Below are positions 46,417-64,000 of a stretch of 64,000 nt of DNA, piece after piece. Below the pieces are notes generated by a model. That model was not told where the DNA came from. It saw only the letters and a list, made by a program, of their open reading frames with translations, and ran no database searches. Origin of the DNA: Paracoccus sp. JM45 (GTDB lineage Bacteria; Pseudomonadota; Alphaproteobacteria; Rhodobacterales; Rhodobacteraceae); contig NZ_QQVY01000002.1 in NCBI RefSeq assembly GCF_003590715.1, positions 302,460 through 366,459 on the forward strand, read 5' to 3'. The stretch's first letter is position 1. Each line of letters opens with the position of its first letter. A program made the position numbers and the translations under genes.

Positions 46417-47376
46417 CTAGCTTTTCACACTGACAGCCTCGGTCTCGATGGTCACATGGGAAAGCTCTGCCAGATGAGCGAGTCGCTCACGGTATTCCGA
46501 CGGCTGGCGCGGCGCCTTGGCACGGACGGCGATGATTGCCCCGTGATGACCGGGGCCGAGTTGCCAGACGTGCAGGTCCGTTACCTGCTCCCCCTCGTTT
46601 TCGATGGCTTCGCGGATCCGGGCAGGAAGATCCTCGTCCTCGGGAAGGTAATCGACCAGGACGGCACCGGCGTCGGCAACAAGCCCCCAGGACCAGCGGG
46701 CGATAACCAGGGCGCCAACGATGCCGATTATCGGATCGAGCCACACCCAGTCGTAAGCGCGACCGGCCAGCAAGGCGACGATCGCGAGGACTGATGTAAG
46801 CGCGTCGGCGAGCACGTGAAGGTAGGCTGCGCGAAGATTGTTGTCGGTCCCGTGGTGGTGATCGTGCGCGTGGCCATGATGATGTCCGTGCCCGTCGTGC
46901 AGAAGTGCCGCGCAGCCGAGATTGACGATAAGACCGATGATCGCGACGACGGTTGCCTGTCCGAAGTTGATATCGACGGGGTTTGCCAGCCGCACCAAGC
47001 TCTCCCAGCCGATCAGCAGTGCGACGATGCCCAGCACCACCGCGCTCCCGAACCCGGCGAGATCCCCGACCTTGCCGGTGCCGAAGGTAAAGCGTGAATT
47101 GCGCGCGTGGCGCTTCGCATAGCGGTAAGACAGGGCCGTGATCATCAGGGCCGCAGCATGGGTCGACATGTGCCAGCCGTCGGCCAACAGCGCCATCGAG
47201 CCGTAATAGGTGCCGGCTGCGACCTCGACCACCATCATCGTGGCGGTGGTGGCGATGACGGCCCAGGTGCGTCGGGCGTTCCGGTCGTGCTGAGCGCCAA
47301 GAAAGACGTGATCGTGCGTTCCGTCTTGAGTCGCGTCAACTGCCGATGAGCCATGGTTGTGAGCGTGATCGTGCAT
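46417..47376 (-). CDS. dmeF: DmeF, CDF-family Co/Ni efflux transporter
   Basis: 319-aa cation-diffusion-facilitator protein with six transmembrane helices, an N-terminal HDHVFLG motif typical of DmeF, a histidine-rich cytoplasmic loop (HGHHHGHAHDHHHG, about 160-175) and metal-site residues in LADGWHMSTH and HVLADALTS. It exports divalent cations, in DmeF chiefly Co and Ni, from the cytoplasm. It lies directly downstream of dmeR. Confidence 0.9.
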   Translation of the reverse strand: MHDHAHNHGSSAVDATQDGTHDHVFLGAQHDRNARRTWAVIATTATMMVVEVAAGTYYGSMALLADGWHMSTHAAALMITALSYRYAKRHARNSRFTFGTGKVGDLAGFGSAVVLGIVALLIGWESLVRLANPVDINFGQATVVAIIGLIVNLGCAALLHDGHGHHHGHAHDHHHGTDNNLRAAYLHVLADALTSVLAIVALLAGRAYDWVWLDPIIGIVGALVIARWSWGLVADAGAVLVDYLPEDEDLPARIREAIENEGEQVTDLHVWQLGPGHHGAIIAVRAKAPRQPSEYRERLAHLAELSHVTIETEAVSVKS

Positions 47377-47809: not shown

Positions 47810-48700
47810 ATGTCGACAACCATCAAGCTCGCGATCGGGAGCATCTTCGTCGGCGTGATTGTCCTGGCGATCAAGATGCTCGCATGGTGGCTCACCGGAT
47901 CGGTGGCGCTGTTTTCCGACGCTCTCGAGAGCACCGTCAACGTCGCAACCGCGTTCGCAGCTCTGATCGCGATCCGGATCGCGGCGCGTCCGGCGGATGC
48001 GTCCCACCCTTACGGTCATGACAAGGCCGAGTTCTTTAGCGCGGTGCTTGAGGGCGTGATGATCATAATCGCCGCGCTTCTGATCCTGCGCGAGGCATAC
48101 CACGGGTTTCTGAATCCGGTGGCACTCGACCTGCCGATCGAGGGCCTCCTAGTGAACGGTGTTGCGACCGCCATCAACGCAGTCTGGGCGTGGATTCTCG
48201 TGAGACGTGGTCGCGCGGCGAAGTCGCCGGCACTGATCGCCGGTGGGAGGCACCTCTTTACCGACGTCATAACCTCTGCCGGCGTAGCGTTCGGGGTTCT
48301 TCTAGCGATCGTGACCGGGTGGTGGATACTCGACCCGATGATGGCAGCAGGGGTTGCGATCAACATCCTCTGGTCTGGGTCAAAGGTGGTGAAGGAATCA
48401 TTGAGCGGGCTGATGGACGAGGCCGTGCCGCAAAATACGCTTGAAACCATTCGCACTGTCATCTCGAGGGAAGCCGATGGAGCGATGGAAGCCCACGATC
48501 TGCGGACCCGGCATGCTGGCAGCTCGACGTTCATCGACTTCCATCTCGTGGTGCCCGGCGAAACGACAGTGTTTGATGCGCACGAGATCTGCGATCACAT
48601 CGAGGCTGCGCTTATGGAAAGAGTGCCTGGCGCGATGATCACCATACATATCGAGCCAGAGCACAAGCAGAAGCACTCTGGTATCGTCGTCTTGGCGTGA
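47810..48700 (+). CDS. CDF-family cation efflux transporter
   Basis: 296-aa transporter of the FieF/MMT branch: six helices, metal-site segments ALFSDALES and RHLFTDVITS, the HPYGHDKAEF motif and a C-terminal cytoplasmic metal-binding domain (HLVVPGETTVFDAHEICDHI). Likely substrates are Zn, Cd, Fe or Mn; specificity is not decidable. It is divergent from dmeR. GGAG precedes the ATG. Confidence 0.9.
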   Translation: MSTTIKLAIGSIFVGVIVLAIKMLAWWLTGSVALFSDALESTVNVATAFAALIAIRIAARPADASHPYGHDKAEFFSAVLEGVMIIIAALLILREAYHGFLNPVALDLPIEGLLVNGVATAINAVWAWILVRRGRAAKSPALIAGGRHLFTDVITSAGVAFGVLLAIVTGWWILDPMMAAGVAINILWSGSKVVKESLSGLMDEAVPQNTLETIRTVISREADGAMEAHDLRTRHAGSSTFIDFHLVVPGETTVFDAHEICDHIEAALMERVPGAMITIHIEPEHKQKHSGIVVLA

Positions 48701-49618: not shown

Positions 49619-50434
49619 TCAGGCCAGGATCCACATCGCCAGCATCCAGAGCCCCATGCCGAGCATGATCAGGTTCTCGCTAAGTGAAATGAACCCAAGC
49701 GGCACATTCGATCCGCCGCCAACACAGGCGCATTTCAGGTCACGCTTTTCGATATAGACCGCTTTGATGACGCTCACCGCACCGATGGTGCCGATGAAGA
49801 TGCCAACCGGTGCCACCAGCCAGATCAAAGCGGAACTGGAGCCGATCAGAGCCATCATGCCCACGCCCGCATAGAGTTCGGCGAAAGGATAGGCAAAGCC
49901 GTAGGGGACGTATTTCTGGGCCAGCAGATCGTAGCCGAGAAAGCCATTCACGAAGCCCTCTACGTCCTGCAGCTTCTGGATCGCAAGAACGACCATCGAG
50001 GCGGCGAAAAGCCACTTGAGGAACGTGAGGAATGGAAAGCCGTCGTAAAGGTTCATCACGATGGCAAGCGCCATCAACGCCGTGGCGGAAAAGATCGCGA
50101 TGACGGGCGTATAGGTGGTGTCGTCCTTGCCCAGAACCTTATGGCCGAAATGTTTCTTCAGGTCGGTATAGCCGCCGACCTGTTCGCCGTCGATGAAGGT
50201 GATTGGCGTTGTAGCAACGCCATGCGCTTGCTTGAAGGCGTCCACTTCGTCGCGGGTCGTCAGCAGGTTGTCATCTACGGTATAACCTTTGCGCTGCAAC
50301 ATGGATTTGGATTTCAAGCCGAAAGGGCAAAGATGGCCTGGCATGACCATCCGATAGAGTGACGCGGTCTTTTCCGGGCCCTTGCTTTTGGCGCGGGCGG
50401 TCTCCGGACCATCGATCATATCTGCAGTCGGCAT
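49619..50434 (-). CDS. Glutaredoxin-MauE fusion membrane protein
   Basis: 271-aa protein. The N-terminal glutaredoxin domain has the site CPFG (C36-G39), lacking the second cysteine, and TTPITFIDGEQVGGYTDL. From about residue 105 a four-helix MauE/DoxX-like membrane domain follows (NLYDGFPFLTFLKWLF, FAYPFAELYAGVGM, ending with CACVGGG). It may shuttle electrons across the membrane; partner unknown. The start at 50434 has GGAGAA 8 bases upstream. It lies between two DUF305 genes. Confidence 0.85.
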   Translation of the reverse strand: MPTADMIDGPETARAKSKGPEKTASLYRMVMPGHLCPFGLKSKSMLQRKGYTVDDNLLTTRDEVDAFKQAHGVATTPITFIDGEQVGGYTDLKKHFGHKVLGKDDTTYTPVIAIFSATALMALAIVMNLYDGFPFLTFLKWLFAASMVVLAIQKLQDVEGFVNGFLGYDLLAQKYVPYGFAYPFAELYAGVGMMALIGSSSALIWLVAPVGIFIGTIGAVSVIKAVYIEKRDLKCACVGGGSNVPLGFISLSENLIMLGMGLWMLAMWILA

Positions 50435-50462
50435 GAGATGTTCTCCGTTTATCTGCTGTCGG

Positions 50463-51020
50463 TCACTTGTATTGTTCATCGCGGGGGGTGCCTGCAGGCG
50501 CATCTCCATTCGCCTCGATATCCGCGATGTAGAGCTTCATTTCCGCAATTTCGGCGCGCTGCGCGTCAATGATCGCATCGGCGAGTGCCCGCACGCGGGG
50601 GTCAGAGATATTGGCACGTTCACTGGTCAGGATCGCGATGGAGTGGTGTGGGATCATCGCTTTCATCCACGCCACATCGCTGACCGTCGCCTGTGACCGG
50701 ACCATCCCAAGGCCAAGTGCAAACGCAGCCAAGGCACCGACGAAGATCGCCACGTTCGCACGTCTGTTGGCATACATTCCCAGCATAAAGGCGAGCATGA
50801 TGATCGCCATGATGCCCCCCATGTAGAGGGCCATCCACATACGGGTCTGCGAGAAGAAAACATGATCAAGCGAATAGGTATTGAGATACATCAGCCCGAA
50901 CATCACGACCGTAGAAGTCATGATCATCCAAAGGAACCGTCCGTATCCGCCTCCCTTGCTGCCAGACCTATCGTGATGCGTCGCGCGTCGATCCACTGTA
51001 ATGTCTTCTTTCTGTGCCAT
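50463..51020 (-). CDS. Membrane-bound DUF305 protein
   Basis: 185-aa protein with three transmembrane helices (about 28-46, 64-82, 88-105) and a C-terminal DUF305 domain (MKAMIPHHSIAILTSERANI). It is the first gene of the operon that reads away from the CsoR-like regulator, with the shared operator before it. A role in handling copper at the outer face of the inner membrane is inferred from context. Confidence 0.85.
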   Translation of the reverse strand: MAQKEDITVDRRATHHDRSGSKGGGYGRFLWMIMTSTVVMFGLMYLNTYSLDHVFFSQTRMWMALYMGGIMAIIMLAFMLGMYANRRANVAIFVGALAAFALGLGMVRSQATVSDVAWMKAMIPHHSIAILTSERANISDPRVRALADAIIDAQRAEIAEMKLYIADIEANGDAPAGTPRDEQYK

Positions 51021-51847: not shown

Positions 51848-52780
51848 TCACGACGACAAGTCACCTTTCTCATGTCCAAACAGCTGAGCGCCCTGATGCG
51901 CGTGATCTGGCCTTTCGAACTCGAGGGTCGAATGCAAGATGGCAAACTGCTCACTCAGGCGGTGTTTGATCGCTGCCTTCACAGCCTCGATGCTGCGCCA
52001 TCCCTGGTCGGTCAGGATCACGTGGCAGTCGAGCGCGGCATCGTGTTCCTGCATCTGCCAGAGATGGACATGGTGGACATCCTGGACGCCCTCTGTTTCG
52101 CGAAGTGTGCGGACAACGGCATCTCCATCCATGTCCGGGGGGCTGCCCAGCATCAGCGTCCGGATCGGATCGCCAATTTCGGTCGCCGCCAGATAAAGAA
52201 TATAAAGAGCAATCCCGATCGTGATGGCCGGATCGACCCACCACAGGTCGTAGAGCAGGATCAATGTGCCACCGACTATGACTGCAACTGATGCAAGAGC
52301 GTCGGACAGGTTGTGCAGAAACAGTGCGCGAATGTTGACGCTGCCTTTTTGCATCGACCAGGTCAAAAAGGCCGTCAGCGTATCGATGACCAGCGCCACG
52401 CCACCGAGGATCACGACGGTCCAACCGGCCACCTGCGGCGGGTCGATCAACCGCATGCCGCCTTCGTAGAGCAGGTAGACCCCGATCAGGATCAGCGTCG
52501 TGTAGTTGATCAAGGCGGCGACGATTTCGATCCTGCCATACCCGAAGGTCATGGCAGCATCTGCTGGACGGCGGGCGATCTTGCGAGCGGCGAAGGCGAT
52601 GACCAGCGACGCCATATCCGAGAAATTGTGAAGCGCATCGGCAATCAGTGCCAGGCTGCCCGACAGAAGGCCGCCGATAATCTGAGCAACTGTCAGGAGG
52701 GCATTGGCCCATATCGCCAGCGATACGCGGCGATCGCCGCTGGAGGCATCGAGATGCGTGTGACCCTCACCATGTGGCAT
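51848..52780 (-). CDS. CDF-family cation efflux transporter (ZitB/CzcD-like)
   Basis: 310-aa CDF exporter with six helices. Metal-site segments are ALIADALHNFSD and LFLHNLSDAL, an N-terminal HGEGHTH, and a C-terminal domain with HHVHLWQMQEHDAALDCHV. The ZitB/CzcD type exports Zn and often Cd or Co. It lies 125 bp downstream of the SCO gene on the same strand. Confidence 0.9.
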   Translation of the reverse strand: MPHGEGHTHLDASSGDRRVSLAIWANALLTVAQIIGGLLSGSLALIADALHNFSDMASLVIAFAARKIARRPADAAMTFGYGRIEIVAALINYTTLILIGVYLLYEGGMRLIDPPQVAGWTVVILGGVALVIDTLTAFLTWSMQKGSVNIRALFLHNLSDALASVAVIVGGTLILLYDLWWVDPAITIGIALYILYLAATEIGDPIRTLMLGSPPDMDGDAVVRTLRETEGVQDVHHVHLWQMQEHDAALDCHVILTDQGWRSIEAVKAAIKHRLSEQFAILHSTLEFERPDHAHQGAQLFGHEKGDLSS

Positions 52781-52904: not shown

Positions 52905-53507
52905 CTATTCCAATGCGCGGCGGATCTTCGGCACCGCATAGCGATAGTCCTCATGATAATCGATGATGCTGACAAAGCGTCCATCAGCATCGAACAGGAA
53001 CACGCCCGCCGTGTGATCCATCGTGTAATCACCGTCATCCTGGGGCACTTTCCTGAATGACGCTCGAAACCCATCGACGGCCTGTTCAATCTGGGGCAGA
53101 GGGCCTGTCAGGCCGATGATCCGGGGATCGAAATTCGACAAGTAATCGCCCAGGATCTCAGGCGTATCCCGCCCCGGATCGACCGAAATCAGCACCGTGT
53201 TCATCCGGTCGGCCTCGGGACCGATCTCTTCCAGCCAGATCGAGATATCGCTCAACGTGGTCGGGCAGATGTCGGGGCACCAAGTAAAGCCGAAAAACAC
53301 CATCGTCGGACGGCCGAGCCAATCCTTGGGTTGAACCGTGTCGCCCGATTGGTCCGTCAGGGCAAAGGACATTTGATCGATCGGCAACGGCAGGATGCCC
53401 GCCGCCTGCCGATCCCCATCGCGTGTCTGCCACCAACCGAGAACGAGCATGAACAATACCGCGGCAACTGCTACGACGCCGACGCGCATCAGGGTTGGAG
53501 GCTTCAT
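52905..53507 (-). CDS. SCO1/SenC-type copper chaperone (second copy)
   Basis: 200-aa membrane-anchored SCO protein (helix at about 8-26). Copper ligands are CPDIC in FFGFTWCPDICPTTL and MDHTAG. Its start overlaps the PCuAC stop by 4 bp (ATGA). It probably passes copper to, or keeps reduced, a periplasmic target. Confidence 0.92.
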   Translation of the reverse strand: MKPPTLMRVGVVAVAAVLFMLVLGWWQTRDGDRQAAGILPLPIDQMSFALTDQSGDTVQPKDWLGRPTMVFFGFTWCPDICPTTLSDISIWLEEIGPEADRMNTVLISVDPGRDTPEILGDYLSNFDPRIIGLTGPLPQIEQAVDGFRASFRKVPQDDGDYTMDHTAGVFLFDADGRFVSIIDYHEDYRYAVPKIRRALE

Positions 53508-53977
53508 TCGTCGGGTGAGGGGCAGGTGGGTTCGCTGGCGCCGATATTCTGGATAGTGACAGGGATGGTCACCTTACCCGCATCTCGGAACGTCAGGGTC
53601 ACGGGAAAGGTCTCGCCCTCTTCCAATACCTGTGTCAGCTCCATCAGCATGGCGTGATAACCCCCCGGTTCCAGCGCGACCTGGCCCTCTGCGGGGACCG
53701 GAACCTCCATCGCATGGGGCATCGAGGCGACGCCGTCGGTCATGACCGTCTGGTGCAGCATGGGCATATCTGCTGCAGGTGTGGTGATGGACATCAGTGC
53801 ATCATCTGCCGTGCCGGAATTTCGGATGGTTAGATAGACCACGCCGGGCCGCGCTGTGCCAATGGAGGCACGGGACCATGCCTGAGAGACCTCCAGGGGA
53901 CCGACCGTCACGGTTTCGCAGGCCAGGGCAGGGCCCGCGGCGGCGATCAGGGCGAGGGTGGCGAAGATGCGTTTCAT
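53504..53977 (-). CDS. PCuAC periplasmic copper chaperone
   Basis: About 157-aa exported protein (signal peptide MKRIFATLALIAAAGPALA). The copper-binding pattern of histidines and methionines is visible: PMLHQTVM and, further on, GGYHAMLMEL. PCuAC proteins deliver Cu(I) to the CuA site of cytochrome oxidase, commonly together with SCO proteins, which flank it on both sides here. ATG 53977 follows the preceding SCO stop by 5 bp. Confidence 0.92.
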   Translation of the reverse strand: MKRIFATLALIAAAGPALACETVTVGPLEVSQAWSRASIGTARPGVVYLTIRNSGTADDALMSITTPAADMPMLHQTVMTDGVASMPHAMEVPVPAEGQVALEPGGYHAMLMELTQVLEEGETFPVTLTFRDAGKVTIPVTIQNIGASEPTCPSPDE

Positions 53978-53982
53978 GTGGG

Positions 53983-54576
53983 TCACAATCTGGCTTGAAG
54001 GTCGGCGACGATTTCGGATGCGGGCGTGCCGTAGGTGAACTGGCCAAGCCAGTCCCCCTCGGGGCTGATCAGATAAAGACCAGGGCTGTGGGACATGGCA
54101 TACCCATCAAGAGCCTCCAAATTGGCTTCACGCTCGTAATAGATGCGAAAACTGTCCGCCGCAGCGCGGGTTTGTGCCGCATCTCCGGCAAGGCCCAGGA
54201 TTGAGGGATGAAACGCCTCGGTATACTCGGCAAGACCCATTTCCCGGTCGCGCTCGGGGTCGATCGAAATGAACAGCGGCTGCACCTTGCCTGCCTGATC
54301 ACCCAGATCGTCCATGACCTGAGCCACCTCGGCCAAGGTGGTCGGGCAGATATCAGGGCAGTTCGTGAACCCGAAAAATACCAGAAGATGCTTGCCCTCG
54401 AAATCGGCCGGGGTGCGCAGACGTCCTCCCGCGTCGGGTAGGCTGAAGGTCGGACGAAACGCCGCCTGAGCGATCGGTTCGGGGCTGCGGTCGACGAGCA
54501 GAAAGACCGCGCCGACAGCCACCAGCGCCACGGCAACAGCCGCCCAGAGAAATTTTTGAAGCGTGGTCAGCCGCAT
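53983..54576 (-). CDS. SCO1/SenC-type copper chaperone (third copy)
   Basis: 197-aa SCO protein with one N-terminal helix (about 6-27) and the metal site FFGFTNCPDICPTTL plus MSHSPG. It is distinct in sequence from the other SCO proteins in the window. It heads the SCO-PCuAC-SCO set. The start at 54576 (MRLTTLQKFLW) directly precedes the membrane helix; the frame to 54624 is unlikely. Confidence 0.92.
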   Translation of the reverse strand: MRLTTLQKFLWAAVAVALVAVGAVFLLVDRSPEPIAQAAFRPTFSLPDAGGRLRTPADFEGKHLLVFFGFTNCPDICPTTLAEVAQVMDDLGDQAGKVQPLFISIDPERDREMGLAEYTEAFHPSILGLAGDAAQTRAAADSFRIYYEREANLEALDGYAMSHSPGLYLISPEGDWLGQFTYGTPASEIVADLQARL

Positions 54577-54673
54577 GTTGCCTGCATCCGTGATCGTTTC
54601 CCGAGGCCTAAAGCCTCTAGCCACATGAGCTTCAAGCGAGAAAGCCTGCCGTCACGCATTGGTGACACCAAAG

Positions 54674-55993
54674 TCAGCCCAGAACTGTCGCCAACAGGTT
54701 CACGTTCAGCACGATGATGGTGACGGCGATCAGGGCGCACAGGCCGGTCAGCCAGCGCGGGGATACCATCGGCCCCATCTTGGCGCGGCTGGCGGTGAAC
54801 ATCACCAGGGGCACGATTGCAAAGGGCAGCTGGAAGGACAGCACGACCTGACTAAGGATCAGCAATTGTCCTGTACCCTCTGTGCCGTAGATCAGGATCA
54901 CGACGGTCGCGGGCAGGATTGCGAACCCCCGGGTGATCAGGCGCCGCAACCAGGGTTGCAGCCTTAGCCGGACAAAGCCCTCCATGACGATCTGTCCGGC
55001 CATTGTGGCGGTCACGGTCGAGTTGAGACCCGAACACAGCAGCGCAATCCCAAACAGGACCGGAGCGATGGATGATCCCAGAAGCGGCTCCAGAAGCAGG
55101 TGCGCCTTGTCGATCTCGGTCACGTTGTTTTCCCCGGCCGTGTAAAAGGCTGCGGCGGCCAGGATGAGGATCGCGCAATTGATCAGCAGCGCGAACATCA
55201 GCGCGATGGTCGAATCCCAGGTTGCCAATCGCAGGGCCTCCCGTTTGGAGGGCAGGTCCAGCCCGTAGGCGCGTGTCTGCACGATCCCCGAATGCAGATA
55301 GAGGTTATGCGGCATCACGGTGGCCCCGATGATGCCAAGCGCCAGATACAGCATGTCGGAATTGCCGATGATCTCCCGGCTTGGTGCAAAGCCCGCGATC
55401 ACCGCACCCCATTCGGGGTCGGCCTGCGCGATCAGCACCCCGAAGCAGACAGTGATCGTTCCCAGCAAGGCGATGATGAAGGCCTCGACCCACCGGAAGC
55501 CCTTGTTCTGAAGCCACAGGATCAGGAACACGTCAGCAGCGGTGATGAAGATCCCGATTTCGAGGGGGATGCCGAAGAGTAGATTTAAGCCGATGGCGGT
55601 GCCGATGACCTCGGCCAGATCGGTGGCGATGATGGCCAGTTCGGCAAAGATCCACAGTGGGATCGACACCCACCGGGGATAGGCATCGCGGCACGCTTGC
55701 GCCAGATCGCGCCCCGATGCGACCGCGAGGCGGGCGCAAAGCGATTGCAGCAAGATCGCCATGATATTCGACAGGAGGGCTACGAACAGCAGCGTGTAGC
55801 CAAATGCAGCACCGCCCGCCAACGAGGTCGCCCAGTTGCCGGGGTCCATATATCCGACGGCGACCAGGTAGCCGGGACCGATAAACGATAGAAAGCGCCG
55901 GAAGCGGGTCGTGCCGCCGCCCACGGCGATCGTGCGGAACACTTCGGACAGGGACGGGGTGTCGCGCTCATGGCGCCAGGCAGAACGAGACAT
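54674..55993 (-). CDS. mntH: Nramp-type Mn(II)/divalent metal importer
   Basis: 439-aa proton-coupled transporter with about 11 helices. The metal-binding motif DPGNW lies in helix 1 ([16 protein letters not shown]) and MPHNLYLHS in helix 6, which are diagnostic for Nramp. Placement opposite mntR with a shared operator supports manganese as main substrate. Confidence 0.94.
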
Positions 55994-56086: not shown

Positions 56087-56539
56087 ATGACCGCAGATAT
56101 TCATGTAGCCGAAACCACCAGCGATCCTGTGCACCCGGACAATCGGGCGGAGGCCTTTCATGGCGTCCGTGCTGCCCGGCGCAACGAGCTGGCCGAAGAT
56201 TACGTCGAACTGATCGCAGAGCTGATCCATGAACAGGGTGAAGCCCGGCCGGTGGATATCGCGGCACGATTGGGGGTGCGCGCGCCGACGGTCACCAAGG
56301 CCCTGGATCGCCTGGCCCGTGAGGGACTGATCACGCGCGAGCGATACAGGTCCGTCTTTCTGACAGAAGAGGGACGACGACTGGCACTGGAATGCCGCCG
56401 CCGCCATGCCATTGTGCTGCGGTTCCTGATCCGCCTCGGCCTGGATGCCGAGACGGCGGAACGAGATGCCGAAGGGATCGAGCATCACGTCAGTGAGCGC
56501 ACACTGGCCTTGTTCGCGGCCTACGCCGATCGGGCCTAG
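56087..56539 (+). CDS. mntR: MntR/DtxR-type manganese repressor
   Basis: 150-aa regulator of the DtxR family. Winged-helix segment VDIAARLGVRAPTVTKALDRL (about 63-83), then the dimerisation domain with metal-ligand candidates in ECRRRHAIVLRFL and EGIEHHVSERTL. It senses Mn(II) and should repress mntH. Confidence 0.92.
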   Translation: MTADIHVAETTSDPVHPDNRAEAFHGVRAARRNELAEDYVELIAELIHEQGEARPVDIAARLGVRAPTVTKALDRLAREGLITRERYRSVFLTEEGRRLALECRRRHAIVLRFLIRLGLDAETAERDAEGIEHHVSERTLALFAAYADRA

Positions 56540-56548
56540 GCCGCCCGG

Positions 56549-57208
56549 TCAGGATGCCTCCACGGCACTGCGCACATCCGCAAGCAGGCTGTCCATGCTG
56601 ATATCCGTCATCTGGCGACCATTGAGAAAGAAGGTCGGTGTCTGGCGTACACCGATCGCCGCGATATCGGCCGCGTCCTGATTGAGGATGCCGACGATAT
56701 CGGGGGACAGACGGGCTGTCTGCGCCTTTTCCATATCCAGACCGGCCGCAGCCGCAATTTGCCATGCAAGGTCCATTCGCGGTGCGCCATGGACAGCCCA
56801 TTCCGGCTGCCGTTCCAACAGCGCATCGAGGACAGGCTCGAACTTGTCCTGCATACGCGCGGTCTCCAGGATGCGGACCGCCTCGTCGGACCCCTCGTGA
56901 AACACCGCATAGCGCATCACGATGCGGACCTGATCGGGAAATTGTGCGCGAATGTCCTGAACGACCGGATGAAAGGCGCGGCAAGCCTCGCAAGATGGAT
57001 CGAAGAACTCGACCAGCGTGACCGGAGCGTCTTCTGGTCCAAAGCTGGGCGCGTGACCGCGGACCAGCATGTCTGTTTCCACAGCCGGGGCAGCAGCGGC
57101 CAGGGTATCCGCTTCGGCCTGACGATTGCGCGTCAGCACGAGCGCGCCGCCGGCAAAGGCGGCAATCCCGATGGCAGATGTTCCGATGAGCACGGTGCGG
57201 CGGTTCAT
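56549..57208 (-). CDS. DsbA-like thioredoxin-fold oxidoreductase
   Basis: 219-aa protein with an N-terminal signal/anchor (NRRTVLIGTSAIGIAAFAG) and a DsbA/thioredoxin fold. The active site is CEAC (C73, C76) in FFDPSCEACRAFHPV, with cis-proline in RQTPTFFLNGR. It introduces or rearranges disulfides in the periplasm and should be recycled by the DsbB encoded 4 bp upstream (ATGA overlap). The start at 57208 has AAGGAAA upstream. Confidence 0.9.
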   Translation of the reverse strand: MNRRTVLIGTSAIGIAAFAGGALVLTRNRQAEADTLAAAAPAVETDMLVRGHAPSFGPEDAPVTLVEFFDPSCEACRAFHPVVQDIRAQFPDQVRIVMRYAVFHEGSDEAVRILETARMQDKFEPVLDALLERQPEWAVHGAPRMDLAWQIAAAAGLDMEKAQTARLSPDIVGILNQDAADIAAIGVRQTPTFFLNGRQMTDISMDSLLADVRSAVEAS

Positions 57209-57642
57209 GGGCGTTTTCCTTTCGACAAGATGAGGCAGGCCAGAACGGCTGCAAAGGCGGCGAATGCAAGATAGGGAATGGGCAGGTTCAGGATCGTCTG
57301 CGCCTGGTCGGTGCAGGACGGGCCGTCCTTGGTGCAAGGCGCGATGCTCTGCGGGATCAGTCCTGCGTAAAGTCCCGAATGCCAGCCGGAAAGGACCAGC
57401 CCGGCCAGCGCCAGTGGCAATCCGTAGAGACGTGCCAGACCGTCACCGCGCCACAGCGAGATTGCCAAGACAGGCACTAACGGAAACATGGAGATCCTCT
57501 GATACCAGCATAGGGTGCAGGGCATCTGCCCCAGTATCTCGCCGATGAACAGCGCGCCGAGCGTAGCGGCGAGTGCGACCAGAAAGGCAGTTGATATTGC
57601 AATATCATTCCGGGACAGGCCCCGGGGGTCAGGTGCGGTCAA
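57205..57642 (-). CDS. dsbB: DsbB, disulfide-bond formation protein B
   Basis: 145-aa four-helix membrane enzyme that passes electrons from DsbA to quinone. The two redox pairs are C42/C45 (MPCTLCWYQR) and the periplasmic pair in APCTKDGPSC. It overlaps lspA by 14 bp and dsbA by 4 bp. Confidence 0.92.
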   Translation of the reverse strand: MTAPDPRGLSRNDIAISTAFLVALAATLGALFIGEILGQMPCTLCWYQRISMFPLVPVLAISLWRGDGLARLYGLPLALAGLVLSGWHSGLYAGLIPQSIAPCTKDGPSCTDQAQTILNLPIPYLAFAAFAAVLACLILSKGKRP

Positions 57643-58114
57643 AAGAGAGTTCCTTCGAGCGGGAGGGACGGAGCATCGCTGTCAGCACAAGCAAGGCGCC
57701 GAGGCTGATCGCGATGTCGGCCCCGTTAAAGGTCGGCCAGTGCCAATCACGCCAGTAGACATCCAGAAAATCGGTCACGGCACCTTGCCGCAGGCGGTCG
57801 ATGATATTGCCCACAGCACCCCCCACGATCAGCGCGAGGCCTATGCCTTCGCGCTTCGTATCCGCCCGGAAGGCCATTCCCGCAAAGATGATCGCCAGGG
57901 CACCTGTCAGGGCAACCATCAGCAAGGGACGACCTGCCATTAGGTCGGACATCATGCCGAAACTCGCCCCTTCGTTGAAACCAAGCGTCAGATTGAAGCC
58001 GGGAGAGACGGAATAAATTTCCCCGGGAGACAAGCTCCGCAGGACCGCGAGCTTGGTGATCTGATCGGCAGCCGCAGTAGCGACGATCATCCCCAGGATC
58101 AGAAGCGACTTCAT
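57629..58114 (-). CDS. lspA: Lipoprotein signal peptidase (LspA), metal-island paralog
   Basis: 161-aa four-helix membrane aspartyl protease. The catalytic aspartates are D106 in GNIIDR and D133 in FNGAD, so it should be active. It cuts signal peptides of prolipoproteins. Placement inside a metal-ATPase operon suggests a paralog dedicated to a lipoprotein of this system, as known for the pbr lead-resistance genes. The start at 58114 overlaps the preceding stop by 4 bp. Confidence 0.92.
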   Translation of the reverse strand: MKSLLILGMIVATAAADQITKLAVLRSLSPGEIYSVSPGFNLTLGFNEGASFGMMSDLMAGRPLLMVALTGALAIIFAGMAFRADTKREGIGLALIVGGAVGNIIDRLRQGAVTDFLDVYWRDWHWPTFNGADIAISLGALLVLTAMLRPSRSKELSFDRT

Positions 58115-58734
58115 TGCAGTGACCTTTCCCGGATGCCGATCCAGCGCGGAACAAACTGGCAATATGTGTCGTAAGCAGGGCCAAGCGTCCGCCGCAATTC
58201 ACGTTCTTCTGAGCGGACCTGAACAAGCGCCGAGCCTGCAAACAGCAGGACCCCAAAAATTGTCGGGATGGAGGGCACGGCCAGAGCGGTTCCGAGCAGC
58301 AACATGAGCTGACCCACAAAAACCGGGTTGCGGCTGAAACCGAACAATCCAGCCGTGACAGGTGCGCCGGTCGCCCCCTCGGCCACCCCGATCCGCCATG
58401 ACGCAGCCATCGACATCTGGGCCGCGAATGCCAGCATCGCACCCAGGCTGGCCGTGAACAGTCCCGCCAGACCGATCCACACAGGATTTTGGAAGGACCG
58501 CAGGGGATCAAGATCGCCCATGCTCGGCATGAGACGCCATGCCAACGACCCAAGGAGGGCCAGAGCGAACGCAGCTCGGAAGCCTAGCGCTGCAAGACGG
58601 TCGCCGCCCGTGGCGTGACGGAACAACCAGACCGGACGATGCGCCTCCCGGGCATTGATCGCAGAGCCCCAGAAGAACAGGGCCAGATAGGCGCCAAGAA
58701 GAACCAGCGCTGCATTGCCCATTCCAGTCATCAT
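58111..58734 (-). CDS. Isoprenylcysteine-carboxyl-methyltransferase-like membrane protein
   Basis: 207-aa, about five-helix protein of the ICMT/PEMT group. The C-terminal SAM-binding pattern is GFSRNPVFVGQLML and EERELRRTLGPAYDTYCQFV. Bacteria lack prenylated proteins of the usual kind, so the acceptor is unknown. It lies between zntA and lspA, coupled to both. Confidence 0.82.
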   Translation of the reverse strand: MMTGMGNAALVLLGAYLALFFWGSAINAREAHRPVWLFRHATGGDRLAALGFRAAFALALLGSLAWRLMPSMGDLDPLRSFQNPVWIGLAGLFTASLGAMLAFAAQMSMAASWRIGVAEGATGAPVTAGLFGFSRNPVFVGQLMLLLGTALAVPSIPTIFGVLLFAGSALVQVRSEERELRRTLGPAYDTYCQFVPRWIGIRERSLQ

Positions 58735-58738
58735 CGCC

Positions 58739-60994
58739 TCAGCGCTTCTGTTCGGGATTGTAGCGCAAGAGGCGCAGGGCGTTCAGGGTCACCAGAACCG
58801 TCGCGCCCGTATCAGCCAGGATCGCAATCCATAGACCGGTCATGCCAAGGACGGTGGTGACCAAGAAAATAGCCTTTAATCCTAGCGCGATACTGACGTT
58901 CTGCCGGATATTGGCCATCGTGGCCCGCGCCAGCCGGATCTGGGCCGGAATATCAGTCACCCTGTCGCGCAGGATGGCAGCATCGGCCGTCTCCAGAGCG
59001 ACATCCGTGCCGGAGCCCATCGCGACACCGATGCTGGCCTGTTTCAGGGCAGGGGCGTCATTGATGCCATCCCCGATCATCATGACGCCACCTTGAGCGT
59101 TCATGTCGCGAATGGCGGCCAGCTTGTCTTCAGGCATCATCTCGGCCTCGAACCGGATATTGAGCCCCTCGGCGATGGCGGCAGCTGTGCGGGGGTTGTC
59201 GCCGGTCAGCATGATCGAGGAGATGCCCATTTCGGCCAGCTGGCGCACAGCCTCCGCCGCATCGGGCCGCAGCTCGTCACGCATGGCGATGAGACCGAGC
59301 GGGACGCCTTTGCGATAGACGGCGACGGCGGTCTTGCCCTCATCCTCGAAGATGGTCGCCTGACGCAGGCCAAGACTGTCCAGGCCATCGTTCTCCGACG
59401 CATGCCGGGGTGAACTCACCCATGCCAGGGCATCTCCCACGGTCGCCTCGACCCCTCGTCCGGTCAGGGCGCGTGCATCGCGGGCGGGCAGGGGAGTGAC
59501 GCCCGCCGTCTTGGCCCTGTCCAGGATCGCCACGGCGAGGGGATGGCTCGATCCGCTCTCGACGCCCGCGGCGACCTCCAGCAACTGCGCCTCAGTCGTG
59601 GTTCCGAACGTCACCAGGTCAGTGACCTGCGGACGTCCGTGGGTCAGCGTCCCGGTCTTGTCGAAGGCGACATGGGAAACCTTGGCCGCGGCCTCGATCA
59701 CTGCGCCGCCCTTCATCAGCATTCCCCGGCGCGCGCCGGTGGACAGGCTCGATGCGATCGAGGCCGGAACCGAAATCACCAGCGCACAAGGGCAGCCGAT
59801 CAGCAGGAGCGCCAGTCCACGATAGATCCAGGTATCCCATGACTGACCGAACATCAGCGGCGGGAGCACGATGACAAGCGCCGAAACCGCAACGATGGCA
59901 GGCATGTACCACCGGCTGAACCGGTCGATGAAGCGTTCCGTGGGGGCGCGGGCTTCTTCCGCTTCCTCGACCAGCCGGATAATCCGGGAAATGGTGTTGT
60001 CCTCGGCCGCCTTCGTCACAGTGACCCGCAGGACAGCTTCGGTGTTGATCGAACCAGCAAAAACATTTTCGCCCGGGCCACGTGTCCGGGGAATACTCTC
60101 ACCCGTGACCGGGCTTTCATCGATGCCCGATGTGCCTTCCGTTATCTCGCCATCTGCGGGAATGCGATCACCCGGCCGGACCAAGACGGTCTGGCCAATG
60201 ACGAGGCTGGATGCTGCAACCTCACGGGTGGCGCCGTTTTCTTCTAGCAATGCAGTCTTGGGGACGAGATCGGCCAAGGCCCGTATGCCGTCGCGTGCCT
60301 TACCCGCCGCCACACCCTCCAGCACCTCACCCACAGCAAAGAGAAAGACCACCAGTGCCGCCTCTTCGGCGGCATTGATGAACAGCGCGCCCAAGGCGGC
60401 GATGGTCATCAATCCCTCGATGGTGAAGAACTGGCCCAACCGTGCTGCGGCAAAGGCGCGACGTGCGACGGGGGCAACACCGATAAGGCAGGCCGCAACA
60501 AAGGCCCAGGTCCCGATCTGCGGGGCGATCAACTCCATTGCCCAAGCCGCAGCCAACAAGAGCCCGGTCAGGATGACCAACCTGCCCTTGCCGGTCTGGT
60601 ACCATGCCTTGCCGCGGTCGGCCGGGTCGTCATGGACGTGACCGGGGCTGCCATGGCCGGAGTGGTCGGTCTTCGCCACAGCGGGGTGATCGGCGTGACT
60701 GTGGCCATCATGGCTCTCCGGCCCACTCCCCGGGAGCACGAAATCCTTCTTGCCAGGTGCGCGCGGTGAAATGCCGTAACCGAGCGACCGAACGGTCTTT
60801 TCGATCTTGTCCTGATCGGTTTTGCGTTCATCGAGGGTCAGGCGCAAGCGTTCGGACATGATGCCGATCTCCACGTCACTGACGCCCGGCAGGCGGGACA
60901 CGGCGCCCCGCACCTTTGTCGCGCAGGAGGCGCAATCCATGCCGGACACCGTCCAGTCGCATGCCGTCGTGCCGGTTTCGTTCGTGGTCGTCAT
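58739..60994 (-). CDS. zntA: ZntA-like P1B-type Zn/Cd/Pb-exporting ATPase
   Basis: About 751-aa heavy-metal P-type ATPase. An N-terminal HMA domain has GMDCASC (residues 18-24); a histidine-rich linker follows (HDGHSHADH near residue 100). The membrane metal site is CPCALVIS, the phosphorylation site DKTGTLTHG, and the end carries the PIB-2 motif ADTGATVLVTLN, which favours Zn/Cd/Pb over copper. Of two adjacent ATGs, 60994 lies at better spacing from AGGAG. Transcription should start from the MerR-type promoter just upstream. Confidence 0.95.
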   Translation of the reverse strand: MTTTNETGTTACDWTVSGMDCASCATKVRGAVSRLPGVSDVEIGIMSERLRLTLDERKTDQDKIEKTVRSLGYGISPRAPGKKDFVLPGSGPESHDGHSHADHPAVAKTDHSGHGSPGHVHDDPADRGKAWYQTGKGRLVILTGLLLAAAWAMELIAPQIGTWAFVAACLIGVAPVARRAFAAARLGQFFTIEGLMTIAALGALFINAAEEAALVVFLFAVGEVLEGVAAGKARDGIRALADLVPKTALLEENGATREVAASSLVIGQTVLVRPGDRIPADGEITEGTSGIDESPVTGESIPRTRGPGENVFAGSINTEAVLRVTVTKAAEDNTISRIIRLVEEAEEARAPTERFIDRFSRWYMPAIVAVSALVIVLPPLMFGQSWDTWIYRGLALLLIGCPCALVISVPASIASSLSTGARRGMLMKGGAVIEAAAKVSHVAFDKTGTLTHGRPQVTDLVTFGTTTEAQLLEVAAGVESGSSHPLAVAILDRAKTAGVTPLPARDARALTGRGVEATVGDALAWVSSPRHASENDGLDSLGLRQATIFEDEGKTAVAVYRKGVPLGLIAMRDELRPDAAEAVRQLAEMGISSIMLTGDNPRTAAAIAEGLNIRFEAEMMPEDKLAAIRDMNAQGGVMMIGDGINDAPALKQASIGVAMGSGTDVALETADAAILRDRVTDIPAQIRLARATMANIRQNVSIALGLKAIFLVTTVLGMTGLWIAILADTGATVLVTLNALRLLRYNPEQKR

Positions 60995-61042
60995 CATTCT
61001 CTCCTCTGCGGAAAGCAGGGCGGTTGCCATCATCGATTCGGA

Positions 61043-61073
61043 GGTCTACGTCCTCTAGCAACTATAGGTTCAA
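61043..61073 (-). promoter_or_regulatory. MerR-type promoter/operator of zntA
   Basis: On the minus strand, -35 TTGAAC (61073-61068) and -10 TAGACC (61048-61043) are separated by 19 bp, the long spacer typical of MerR-activated promoters. The spacer holds the inverted repeat CCTCTAG-CAA-CTATAGG (61052-61068 on the plus strand). The adjacent regulator gene is the natural activator. Confidence 0.85.
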
Positions 61074-61084
61074 GGAGAATCTTC

Positions 61085-61522
61085 ATGCTGACCATCGGAA
61101 AGCTGGGAACGTCGACGGGGGTCAAGGTGCCGACGATCCGCTACTACGAGCAAATCGGCCTGCTGCCCGAAGCCGAGCGCAGCGCCGGTAATCAGCGCCT
61201 TTATACGCACAAGGCCCATGAACGACTGGCGTTCATCCGACACGCCCGCGAGCTTGGCTTTTCCCTGGAGGCGATCCGCGACCTTCTCAGTCTGTCGGAC
61301 GATCCTGATCAGCCCTGCGCCGCAGCCGACGCCATCGCCAAGGCGCAGCTTGCCGAAGTCGAAAGCCGCCTGGCCCGCCTGACAGCCCTGAAAACCGAAC
61401 TTGAACGCATGGTGGTCCAGTGCGCAGGTGACCGGATATCCGATTGCCGGGTCATCGAGGTATTGGGCGATCATTCGCTGTGCGTCACGAACCACCCCAC
61501 GATCGGCGATGCCGGTCAGTGA
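61085..61522 (+). CDS. MerR-family Zn/Cd/Pb-responsive regulator
   Basis: 145-aa regulator: winged helix GTSTGVKVPTIRYYEQIGLL, dimerisation helix, then metal ligands C78, C113, C121 and C133 with H130 near the C-terminus. This layout is like ZntR/CadR/PbrR. It is divergent from zntA and presumably untwists its 19-bp promoter upon metal binding. CAAGGAGAAT precedes the ATG. Confidence 0.9.
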   Translation: MLTIGKLGTSTGVKVPTIRYYEQIGLLPEAERSAGNQRLYTHKAHERLAFIRHARELGFSLEAIRDLLSLSDDPDQPCAAADAIAKAQLAEVESRLARLTALKTELERMVVQCAGDRISDCRVIEVLGDHSLCVTNHPTIGDAGQ

Positions 61523-61635
61523 ATGGCTGGCGATGACCGAAGCAGATGCTGGTGAGTGTAAGGCCCGAATGCAGCGGACATCCCGTCAGAGCATCCGGTG
61601 CCCTGACAAGACCGTGATCAAGAGGCATTTTATCT

Positions 61636-61660
61636 TGAACCTCTAGCTGCTTTAGGTCGC
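61636..61660 (+). promoter_or_regulatory. Second MerR-type operator upstream of the cell-wall block
   Basis: TTGAAC followed by an ACCTCTAG-CTG-CTTTAGGT-type inverted repeat (61640-61658). Compared over 25 bases with the zntA site, 20 positions are identical. The -10 is weak (CAAAAC after 19 bp), so strength is uncertain. It lies in the 204-bp gap after the MerR gene, which holds no other gene. Confidence 0.6.
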
Positions 61661-61726
61661 AAAACGCGCGTGTCGATGACGAGAGGCGAAAGACGGCATG
61701 AACCAACAAAAGCGGCGACAAATTCG

Positions 61727-61970: not shown

Positions 61971-63149
61971 ATGATCTTGCAAGCCTTGCTGACTGCCGGC
62001 GCGATTGCCGTCACGACATCATCGCACGCCGAAACCCCGGCCGAACTGTCTCACCTCACCGAGGCAGTCGCCCCCATGTCGCGACATGAGGTCGTTCCGG
62101 GAGACACGTTGGATTCGATATTGTCGCATGCTGGTATCGGCGTGTCTCTCCGGACCGAGGCGGCGCTGGCGATTTCCGATGTTTTTGATCTCTCGACCCT
62201 CAGCCCTGGACAGATCCTCAGATGGAGCGTGTTTTCCGACGATCCCTGCCAGCTTGCCCGTCTTTCGCTTCTAACCCAAGACGGAACGGACATCGTTCTC
62301 GATTTCACGAAACCTCTCGAAGCATCCTTGATCAAGACGGAGATCCTTCTTCGGGACCGCCGGGAAACTTTTATTCTGGACAGCTCTCTCTTTGAGGCAC
62401 TCGCCGCCCGCAATGCGCCCGAAAGTTTCGCAGTTGACCTTGCGGCGCTACTGGCAGGCCAGATCGACTTTCGAGACCTTGAAGGAACCGAGCGCATCGC
62501 ATTGATGTGGAGCGAAAATATCTTGCCTGACGGAACGGTCGTGGGTGAACCGCAACTCGCCTACGCTCGGGTCGAAAAGAATACGGACATCTTCGAGCTC
62601 GTGACCGGCTCGGTTGAACAGCCTTTCATCCTGTTTCGGAATGGTGCGCAGGTCCAACAGTCCGCGCGGCCTGTCGCGGGAGCCCGGCTGTCTTCGGTCT
62701 TCGGCAAACGCCGGCACCCCGTGCTTGGCACGCAACGAATGCACACGGGGGTCGATTACGCCGCACGGACTGGAACACCCGTCAGCGTCACCGGAGCAGG
62801 AACGGTTGTTTTTGCAGGAACCATGCGGGGATATGGTCGGACGATCGATGTCGATCACGGCGGGGGCGTTTTGACGCGCTATGCGCATCTTTCGCGTTTT
62901 GCCGCAGGGATCGCTCCGGGTGTCGAGTTGAACGCCGGGGCCAGGATCGGTGACGTAGGCGCAACCGGCCTCGTCAGTGGACCTAACCTTCATTACGAAG
63001 TTCGCATAGACGGTAAGCCAACGGATCCCATCAAGGAAACACCAGCGCCCCGAACAGCGATCGCCAAACCGACTGACCGCGTCATGCTGACAGTAGCGCG
63101 TCTCTCCACCGGCTACTTTCTTCGCGACGACACGGGAACGGAAAGCTGA
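61971..63149 (+). CDS. M23-family peptidase with LysM-like region, altered active site
   Basis: 392-aa exported protein (signal peptide MILQALLTAGAIAVTTSSHA). An OapA/LysM-like N-terminal part (RHEVVPGDTLDSILSHAGI) precedes a C-terminal M23 (LytM/MepM) domain. Zinc ligands H258 and D262 (HTGVD) and H341 (NLHYEV) are present, and H306 is in RYAHLS, but the first histidine of the usual HLH motif is asparagine (N339). Activity may be reduced or altered. The ribosome site is weak; a longer frame to 61764 is not supported. Confidence 0.85.
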   Translation: MILQALLTAGAIAVTTSSHAETPAELSHLTEAVAPMSRHEVVPGDTLDSILSHAGIGVSLRTEAALAISDVFDLSTLSPGQILRWSVFSDDPCQLARLSLLTQDGTDIVLDFTKPLEASLIKTEILLRDRRETFILDSSLFEALAARNAPESFAVDLAALLAGQIDFRDLEGTERIALMWSENILPDGTVVGEPQLAYARVEKNTDIFELVTGSVEQPFILFRNGAQVQQSARPVAGARLSSVFGKRRHPVLGTQRMHTGVDYAARTGTPVSVTGAGTVVFAGTMRGYGRTIDVDHGGGVLTRYAHLSRFAAGIAPGVELNAGARIGDVGATGLVSGPNLHYEVRIDGKPTDPIKETPAPRTAIAKPTDRVMLTVARLSTGYFLRDDTGTES

Positions 63150-63191: not shown

Positions 63192-63659
63192 ATGATCAAA
63201 CTGACACGACGCGCCGTAATGATGGCAGCCGCAGCCAGCGGTCTGCCGTCTCTATCCTGGGCTGAAAGCCTTCCTACCATCCATGTCGTTGAGGGCCGCG
63301 GCTGCGAATGTTGCAAACAGTGGACCAATTATCTTCAGGAAATGGGTTTTCAGGTCACGAGTGAAGAGCGGTTTGGCACCTTGTTGATGCAGCACAAGAT
63401 CGATCTGGGCGTACCGATAGAACTGACTTCCTGTCATACCGGCAGCGTTGATGGCTACTTCCTGGAAGGACATGTCCCTGCTGACGATATCCGGCGCCTG
63501 CTCCGAGAGCGCCCAGAAGCTCTCGGTTTGACAGTTCCCGGAATGCCATACGGAAGTCCCGGCATGGGCCCGGAAACAAAGCGCGACGCATACGATGTTC
63601 TGCTTGTGCGCCGAGACGGTACCAGTGAAGTGTTTACCCGCTATCCTGAAGCAACATAA
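63192..63659 (+). CDS. DUF411 metal-binding exported protein
   Basis: 155-aa protein with a signal peptide of twin-arginine look (TRRAVMMAAAASGLPSLSWA). The DUF411 core has cysteines C38, C40 and C41 (RGCECCKQW), then C81-H82 and H94, which could bind copper or another soft metal. DUF411 proteins occur widely in metal-resistance loci. GAGGGG precedes the ATG. Confidence 0.88.
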   Translation: MIKLTRRAVMMAAAASGLPSLSWAESLPTIHVVEGRGCECCKQWTNYLQEMGFQVTSEERFGTLLMQHKIDLGVPIELTSCHTGSVDGYFLEGHVPADDIRRLLRERPEALGLTVPGMPYGSPGMGPETKRDAYDVLLVRRDGTSEVFTRYPEAT

Positions 63660-63686: not shown

Positions 63687-64000
63687 ATGACAAACTTCTC
63701 CCGGCGCCATGCCTCGCTAGCTTTGCTTGCTCTTCTCGCTGCATGTGGAAAATCCGGGCCGTCGACCACCCCGGCACGAGGAGCGATACCTCAGTTCAAA
63801 CGGTACTCAGGCCCCCCTGTCACTCAGGTCGTGGTCAACAAGGCTGAACGACGGATGTTTCTGCTGAACGGGCAGACCGTTCTGAGATCGTATAACTTTG
63901 GCCTCGGTAACCAGCCGCTCGGCCCAAAGCAATTCGAGGGAGACGGAAAAACGCCCGAGGGGCTATACTACATCGACCGTTTCAACCCACGGAGCCGATA
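63687..64000 (+). CDS. L,D-transpeptidase (YkuD) lipoprotein, 3' end missing
   Basis: Reading frame open to the window end, so only about the first 104 residues are visible. A lipoprotein signal peptide (LALLALLAAC, lipid cysteine C20) is followed by the start of a YkuD domain (VTQVVVNKAERRMFLLNG, GDGKTPEGLYYI). These enzymes make 3-3 cross-links in peptidoglycan or attach proteins to it. It would be a lipoprotein client of the LspA encoded upstream on the other strand. Confidence 0.8.
   Translation, partial: MTNFSRRHASLALLALLAACGKSGPSTTPARGAIPQFKRYSGPPVTQVVVNKAERRMFLLNGQTVLRSYNFGLGNQPLGPKQFEGDGKTPEGLYYIDRFNPRSR

Follow-up and report, generated by a model that had tools for sequence, protein, structure and literature searches.

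Known metal-resistance loci related to the five-gene unit

The pbr loci are among the described systems closest to the locus considered here, which lies in a 64,000-nucleotide stretch of Paracoccus sp. JM45 (hereafter the window; C12:302460-366459 of genome G000, contig NZ_QQVY01000002.1, in an assembly of 3.60 Mb and 81 contigs). The locus comprises genes for a P1B-type ATPase, an isoprenylcysteine carboxyl methyltransferase (ICMT)-like protein, signal peptidase II (LspA), DsbB and DsbA behind one predicted MerR-type promoter. On balance, this operon is probably one branch of a second, metal-induced set of enzymes for envelope maturation, a MerR regulon carried by a Rhodobacterales island that is often found on plasmids.

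According to passages of PMC3431237, pbrABCD forms one message, with a divergent MerR regulator, a 19-bp promoter spacer, and a P1B ATPase followed by LspA (PbrC). The pbr locus of Cupriavidus metallidurans pMOL30 shares the divergent MerR, the 19-bp spacer and the ATPase-LspA core with the window, the proteins being 43% (ATPase), 38% (LspA) and 41% (MerR, against the pMOL30 Cd/Pb regulator) identical. The initial annotation had likened the LspA gene beside a metal ATPase to that of lead/cadmium loci of the pbr type, and a pbr-like ATPase-LspA core is indeed supported. For the window LspA (161 aa), the alignment with the 358-aa pMOL30 protein is confined to the C-terminal part of the latter; the window protein has no PbrB phosphatase half, and no gene is annotated as PbrB, PbrD or PbrT in loci L032-L036. 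In their place the window carries a methyltransferase and a Dsb pair, and its island has two further operators. The current model in the passages of PMC3431237 gives PbrC no role and cites reports suggesting that the phosphatase may depend on it. PbrC-type LspA proteins beside metal pumps thus have no agreed role, a question that a regulon with LspA, Lnt, DsbAB and SCO/PCuAC would make testable.

Several other clusters share single features with the window. An ICMT-annotated gene occurs, according to the passages available, as czcN/nccN in a metal-resistance cluster (PMC7563307) and in MerR-ATPase-plastocyanin-ICMT clusters of Alteromonas (PMC8478169); the likeness to the window gene is one of annotation, and there the gene stands with Czc/Ncc efflux or CopA. 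The terms "disulfide" and "lipoprotein signal peptidase" are absent from the Alteromonas text. It was also reported, in passages of PMC8275575, that lit2 is copper-induced together with lgt2 on a mobile element of Listeria/Enterococcus. Like the window, lgt2-lit2 provides second copies of lipoprotein enzymes, co-transcribed there with copper resistance; unlike the window, the enzymes are Lgt and Lit, the hosts are Gram-positive, the metal is copper, and no Dsb protein is named in these passages. DsbA-fold proteins are tied to metal tolerance in the scs (suppressor of copper sensitivity) systems. The best PDB match of the window DsbA is 3gyk, and the weaker ones include 4gxz (named for copper-sensitivity suppression, E 2.5e-4), 6mhh and 6nen, which are named copper or metal tolerance proteins; in contrast to scs, the window DsbA is paired with DsbB as a predicted oxidising couple.

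In Mesorhizobium, the available passages describe a metal-locus signal peptidase II that rises more than 3-fold with Zn in two Mesorhizobium and a ccdA gene after cadA that is induced (PMC3668242), while a thiol-disulfide protein adjoins LspA on the Martelella metal plasmid pMM259 (passages of PMC5613091). Unlike in the window, neither ICMT nor a DsbB-DsbA pair is named in these passages, and the word "isoprenylcysteine" is absent from the Mesorhizobium text. No description of the five-gene set or of its regulon was recognised in the open-access literature, as judged from titles, the beginnings of abstracts and passages.

Organization and conservation of the unit

The MerR-family regulator (61085..61522, + strand; Pfam MerR-DNA-bind, 4.8e-23) is divergent to five genes on the - strand. 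The ZntA/PbrA-like P1B ATPase (58739..61033) has CPC at 414, DKTGT at 458 and an HMA domain; its likelier start is the ATG-ATG at 60997 after AGGAGA, which agrees with the RefSeq length of the L032 homologue. After a gap of 4 bp comes the ICMT/PEMT-like membrane methyltransferase (58111..58734; Pfam PEMT, 3e-6), which overlaps by 4 bp with LspA (57629..58114; Peptidase_A8, 3.3e-34), assigned by a tree to a metal-island lineage. The small, BdbC-like DsbB with four conserved Cys (57205..57642; Pfam DsbB, 3.8e-14) overlaps LspA by 14 bp if it starts at TTG 57642, or follows it after 10 bp if it starts 24 nt later, as RefSeq has it for the L032 homologue. It overlaps by 4 bp with the DsbA-like thioredoxin-fold protein (56549..57208; Thioredoxin_4, 5.2e-20), which has a CEAC motif and a cis-Pro. 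The order, strand and single MerR-type promoter given in the initial annotation are confirmed, and its description of all junctions as overlaps or gaps of 4-5 bp holds except at LspA-DsbB if the RefSeq-type start is used. Its gene labels hold as likenesses (zntA-like, ICMT-like), the ATPase scoring below the ZntA equivalog cut-offs and the methyltransferase not being matched by the Pfam ICMT model. The five genes probably form one transcription unit of a MerR regulon.

A scan of genome contigs with an alignment of the methyltransferase returned 195 relatives, and loci were compared for the best 80; a family sample of 295 genomes was taken without conditioning on neighbours. All five genes occur in order at 66 of the 80 loci, 58 of them uninterrupted and eight (L076, L081, L091, L093, L098, L099, L104 and L112) ordered, by reading of the match lists, despite split or extra weak matches. 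The other 14 loci are without part of the set: L048, L056, L072, L073, L075, L077, L087 (at a contig end), L089, L096, L106, L107, L108 and L109 with Dsb moved, and the lone L115. With junctions counted from a stop to the nearest start codon, which favours small values, ICMT-LspA and DsbB-DsbA are both -4 in 58/58 clean loci, ATPase-ICMT is +4 in 51/58 and LspA-DsbB is -14 in 46/58. Most methyltransferase copies are only 53-61% identical, and the junctions are nevertheless constant; the window copy is 100% identical to that of P. aurantiacus TK008. Annotated plasmids of Paracoccus, Haematobacter, Martelella and Gemmobacter carry all five genes, and at least 80% of the DNA query is covered by each of 13 plasmid records.

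In the family sample there are 11 strong methyltransferase matches (E below 1e-40) in 10 of the 295 genomes. The five-gene order is present in at least six (G000, G010, G023, G111, G121 and G291), a minimum, as only G040 was inspected among the weaker matches (208/295 genomes at E 0.001). With regard to whether the five genes are rarely found together, they are together in most of the methyltransferase relatives, whereas the unconditioned family sample yields only these six or more. Comparative genomics therefore bears out the unit proposed by the initial annotation, in that order and near-constant junctions recur among relatives; it is a genuine unit that several hosts carry on plasmids, within a narrow taxonomic range.

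The predicted MerR regulon

The predicted promoter/operator of the unit (61043..61073, - strand) matches the operator pattern with 0 mismatches (chance mean 0.00) and scores 39.3 with a position weight matrix (PWM). It has a -35 element TTGAAC (61068-61073), a -10 element TAGACC (61043-61048) and, within the 19-bp spacer, the dyad CTATAG-TTGC-TAGAGG, as in operators with 19/20-bp spacers. A hairpin in the promoter DNA was also considered and was weak (z -1.97), so that only the dyad remains.

Residues C78, C113 and C121 of the regulator occupy the places of PbrR C79/C114/C123, cysteines that are named in passages of PMC3431237. They are invariant in 59 distinct proteins of the window's architecture (architecture 1) and 15 of a second architecture (architecture 2, below). 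Going by the PbrR precedent and by what is known of CueR and ZntR, such a Cys triad marks a divalent-metal sensor, and the regulator may be read as one. The ATPase scores above the subfamily models TIGR01525 and TIGR01512. Since a Cys triad and a ZntA-like pump occur together, the inducing metal is most likely a soft one, Zn, Cd or Pb. A P1B operon of the MerR-controlled zntA/cadA/pbr kind is suggested by the triad, the operator and the CPC, DKTGT and HMA features, the equivalog cut-offs being missed.

An operator scan found three places in the window (chance mean 0.00). The second (54605..54635, - strand; 3 mismatches, PWM 25.3) is the predicted promoter of SCO-PCuAC-SCO and ends 28 nt ahead of ATG 54576; the third (61635..61665, + strand; 3 mismatches, PWM 18.2) lies upstream of a M23-DUF411-L,D-transpeptidase (LDT) lipoprotein group. 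At up to three mismatches the 3.6-Mb genome has 6 matches, 3 of them in the window, and the backwards pattern has 0. Elsewhere, a second divergent MerR/ZntA-like pair with an operator of this type (2 mismatches) was observed at G000:C45 near 47354 (L252), with no envelope genes recognised in the 3 kb examined around it.

The PWM was trained solely on ATPase promoters (29 distinct operators). In 2.42 Mb it finds 279 sites at threshold 14, against 1 in the reversed control, and 293 against 8 at threshold 12. At the latter threshold, sites precede 71/78 ATPase heads, 37/40 SCO heads (18/21 for SCO counted as inner) and 25/25 Lnt heads, as well as SCO (24/24) and LDT4 (12/12) in architecture 2 and CcdA (3/5) in architecture 1; related loci are not independent, and such fractions are not probabilities. 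No operator was found by the PWM at MntR (0/66), MntH (0/38) and YnfA (0/42), nor at the inner genes ICMT (0/79), LspA (0/71) and DsbA (0/71), and in a consensus scan DsbB is the gene next to a site only in L037 and L164. The operator thus appears to mark a wider predicted regulon that extends beyond the five genes.

Downstream of the second operator, on the - strand, are a SCO1/SenC-family protein (53983..54576; SCO1-SenC, 4.9e-44), the copper chaperone PCu(A)C (53504..53986; 95% identical to an L032 homologue so annotated) and a second SCO-family protein (52905..53507; 75% identical to an L032 homologue annotated as SCO). On the M23 side, on the + strand, are a M23 metallopeptidase (61971..63149; Pfam, 4.8e-28), a DUF411 protein (63192..63659; L032 homologue so annotated, 95% identical) and an LDT with the lipobox LAAC (63687..64000; YkuD, 2.9e-18), which extends 232 bp beyond the window end (L122:3147-3692). 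In the 42 long five-gene loci, MntR is present in 42/42, SCO-PCuAC in 40/42 and MntH in 26/42, and of the most constant neighbours, MntR and SCO-PCuAC, only SCO-PCuAC has the shared operator. In many islands, MntR and MntH (window 56087-56539 and 54674-55993) separate the operon from SCO-PCuAC-SCO.

A second architecture with the same genes

Architecture 2 was reached via a PF01252 search not conditioned on ICMT. In 40 loci around the LspAs of multi-copy genomes, 19 have the order SCO-DsbB-DsbA-PCuAC-SCO, 8 have LspA at most among the reference genes, and 13 are others, mostly CDF-, CcdA- or M23-linked (one, L191, is a five-gene copy). With five plasmid loci found via LPX, a lipoprotein family described below, the order is present in 22/45, of which 21 have LspA and 16 Lnt. 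These five annotated plasmids, from Leisingera, Celeribacter, Phaeobacter, Pseudosulfitobacter and Sulfitobacter, are typed conjugative, and two of the stretches are cut at the SCO end. They carry the SCO-Dsb operon, M23, DUF411, ZIP, lspA, lnt, two LDTs, a P-type ATPase and LPX, the Leisingera stretch being without ZIP, lspA and lnt. The full order is MerR, SCO-DsbB-DsbA-PCuAC-SCO-M23-DUF411-ZIP-lspA-lnt (L165, L217-L220 and others), and transposition genes TniB/TniQ are located near some of these plasmid islands. That the same cast occurs in two orders argues for function, and the Dsb pair inside the SCO-PCuAC order indicates that its ties are not limited to LspA. In P. yeei, P. halophilus and P. 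lichenicola, the pair likewise lies across MerR, beside SCO/PCuAC and apart from LspA.

Second copies of envelope-maturation enzymes

The island enzymes have the residues expected of active proteins. In LspA (TIGR00077, 109.7 bits against a cut-off of 73.95), D106 and D133, which we take to be the catalytic Asp pair, are invariant (1.00). C73-C76 and P191 of DsbA and C42-C45 and C103/C110 of DsbB are equally invariant (1.00), as an oxidative couple requires, and a periplasmic oxidising activity is putatively assigned. Both architectures conserve the catalytic residues of LspA, DsbB and DsbA without exception. The JM45 genome has a second LspA (35% identical to that of the window), a second DsbB with a better Pfam-model score than the window DsbB, three further Thioredoxin_4 proteins and one Lnt elsewhere. 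In the family sample, 290/295 genomes have LspA by PF01252, and 41 carry at least two copies.

In a tree of 63 LspAs, 9 housekeeping proteins are split from the metal-associated ones, PbrC included, with branch support of 100/99, and architecture 1 (19 rows, thinned from 54) is one group (96/88); the tree is midpoint-rooted with several long branches, and its labels are rule-based, L182 being labelled housekeeping while grouping with CDF-linked LspAs. Near-identical proteins were counted once, and matches with internal stops or under length limits dropped, in the tree and in the residue, Cys-count and loop analyses.

The proposed mechanism is as follows. A soft metal would bind MerR and activate the promoter with the 19-bp spacer, and the pump would move the metal from the cytoplasm to the periplasm. 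There, it could block exposed thiols and metal sites of envelope-maturation enzymes, while the same switch would raise second copies of the vulnerable enzymes. Lipoproteins would be covered by LspA and, in relatives, by Lnt as well, disulfides by DsbB-DsbA, copper delivery to the oxidase by SCO/PCuAC, and the wall by the LDT of architecture 2. E. coli dsb mutants are metal-sensitive. It was also reported, in passages of the respective papers, that copper inhibits lipoprotein acylation (PMC6593411) and LDTs (PMC8263019). For these reasons, spare envelope enzymes under a metal switch could be of use. Metal induction of such enzymes has precedents in lit2/lgt2 and in the Zn-responsive signal peptidase II of Mesorhizobium. 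Gene order, conserved junctions, the shared operator, catalytic residues and extra genome copies are what the sequences themselves give; that the second copies serve as a back-up has about even odds.

A further, tentative and rather doubtful version is target replacement, in which a single metal switch would bring in an additional line of envelope assembly, with enzymes less affected by metal than the resident ones. A structural hint is the loop before the second catalytic Asp. It contains a vicinal Cys pair in 6/9 housekeeping LspAs and in 10/11 readable loops of a second housekeeping set (two from genomes already counted; 18/30 loci gave no readable LspA loop), whereas 0/76 metal-associated LspAs with a readable loop have any Cys there (13 more being unreadable). 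Against target replacement stand the housekeeping LspAs of JM45 itself, G010 and G023 (L196, L208 and L207), which have no such pair, and the 18/30 unreadable loops.

Several observations weigh against the back-up regulon. The five-gene form is uncommon in the family (6/295 genomes), and 14/80 relatives are incomplete. The third operator has a poor -10. In architecture 1, no operator was found at threshold 12 for LDT4 (0/10), LDT2 (0/22), LDT1 (0/15) and LDTfam (0/7 heads, 0/11 inner), and one precedes only 1/21 LPX heads, 6/19 M23 heads and 2/12 DUF411. The islands differ in their LspA, Lnt, LDT and M23 content, as would also be expected of a loose gathering, and the back-up idea does not account for the methyltransferase. 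The indications of the metal are mixed: the pump is below the ZntA equivalog cut-offs (861.9 bits against 1005 and 776.3 bits against 1240) but narrowly passes the copper subfamily cut-off (401.0 versus 397), and the regulator is below the NCBIfam cut-offs for CadR-PbrR (114.1 of 151.45), ZntR (96.8 of 167.95) and CueR. The label "zntA" is therefore a likeness. In the passages of PMC3668242, the rise of LspA with Cd was not significant, and the copper effects from the literature are carried over by analogy. The mean Cys number per LspA is 0.61 in architecture 1 versus 1.78 in the 9 housekeeping proteins (related sequences being treated as independent), whereas it is 1.65 in architecture 2, no clear reduction, and island Lnt proteins mostly have 2-4 Cys versus 2 in the one chromosomal Lnt examined; Cys loss was accordingly rejected as a general mark of island enzymes. 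Finally, the back-up regulon is read from sequence rather than from island expression or fitness.

Alternative explanations and the LPX family

The initial annotation took the ICMT and the Dsb pair to point to one thiol-rich lipoprotein. Among the 42 five-gene loci for which more than 17 kb of sequence was available, examined over ±10 kb at most with a home-made lipobox rule, no cysteine-rich lipoprotein was constant. The best unambiguous families are a lipoprotein LDT (11/42) and the two-cysteine lipoprotein LPX (9/42 by lipobox, 11/42 by profile), while PCuAC (16/42) has an ambiguous ALA-C lipobox site. With unambiguous lipobox families in at most 11/42 loci and Dsb separating from LspA, the single target is unsupported and the idea of a dedicated one weakened.

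LPX comprises lipoproteins of about 90 aa with a lipobox and an invariant Cys pair in CYWY...PIC. It occurs in 178 plasmid records (E 0.01) and 86/295 family genomes, and the JM45 copy (C12:368497-368775, L122:5498-5776, - strand) is 2 kb right of the window. LPX matched no Pfam family; one of three members had one unrelated NCBIfam match (E 0.07), the best PHROGs match was a spanin family (0.011), and a fold search gave nothing better than E 3.5 (model pLDDT 72). It appears to be a new, uncharacterised family.

Dedicated maturation, in which a single disulfide-containing lipoprotein of the island (LPX or the lipobox LDT) would be processed by LspA and DsbAB, is unlikely, although it has some support. 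Since the lipobox Cys and C60/C85 are invariant in 14/14 aligned members, LPX could need both LspA and DsbA. LPX lies within 400 bp of an LDT in 41/42 copies (some regions counted twice), on the opposite strand in 36/41, and it is found in 37/41 genomes with at least two LspAs versus 49/254 others, a cross-count over related genomes. On the other hand, those 49 genomes have LPX without an extra LspA, LPX occurs in only 4/10 close-ICMT genomes and 11/42 long five-gene loci, DsbB-DsbA and LspA separate in rearranged islands, and LPX has no own operator in 20/21 architecture 1 and 13/13 architecture 2 heads. As an obligate target, LPX was rejected on the 4/10 count. It is best regarded as a named candidate substrate family, and the operator motif as a means to find such regulons.

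Slightly less probable again is that the Dsb pair serves SCO/PCuAC by setting the redox state of the SCO CxxxC and of periplasmic copper, LspA being a passenger of the pbr-like pump. Here the position of DsbB-DsbA within SCO-...-PCuAC-SCO in 22/45 loci and with SCO/PCuAC in P. yeei-type islands, the common operator of the SCO/PCuAC and Dsb units, and the metal-tolerance names of the weaker DsbA matches are set against Dsb genes placed directly behind LspA in 58/58 clean loci, with an overlap or a gap of at most 10 bp; LspA with Lnt would also be left unexplained. The least probable alternative, loose assembly near metal pumps on mobile elements without functional coupling, would fit plasmid islands with IS66 and TniB/TniQ genes nearby and gene content that differs between loci, but not junctions that stay constant among methyltransferases of mostly 53-61% identity, one operator ahead of dispersed units and none ahead of MntR/MntH, or the same cast recurring in another order.

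The back-up regulon remains the favoured reading, and the unit appears to be a variant of the pbr/znt kind not previously recognised. It raises the questions of whether metal toxicity lies largely in envelope maturation and whether mobile islands supply spare enzymes beyond efflux.

The methyltransferase and other genes of the island

The methyltransferase matches Pfam PEMT (PF04191) with 28 bits against a cut-off of 25; the Pfam ICMT model was unmatched at E 0.001, and no NCBIfam model matched. Its sequence profile matches the ICMT structures 5v7p (2e-5) and 4a2n (0.0055). In a Foldseek search with a model of pLDDT 77.5, nothing reached E 0.001, and the top match was Ma-ICMT 4a2n (probability 1.00, TM 0.65, weak E 0.056). 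SRNPxFxG, Q172 and E176-E177 are invariant in 26 aligned proteins. Profile and, tentatively, modelled fold point to the ICMT/PEMT superfamily. To our knowledge, prenylation is not expected in this host, and a phospholipid or a small thiol is a possible substrate. Because kin adjoin exporters of several kinds, CDF in Phaeobacter and, by annotation in the passages cited, Czc/Ncc (PMC7563307) and CopA (PMC8478169), the methyltransferase probably goes with the pump. On a Phaeobacter plasmid, a PEMT/ICMT-family gene directly follows a CDF efflux gene (L218:371-928).

To the left of the SCO genes, between 46417 and 52780 of the window, are three CDF genes (46417-47376, -; 47810-48700, +; 51848-52780, -), a MauE-domain protein (49619-50509, -) and a DUF305 protein (50463-51020, -), which indicates that the metal region begins well left of the operon.

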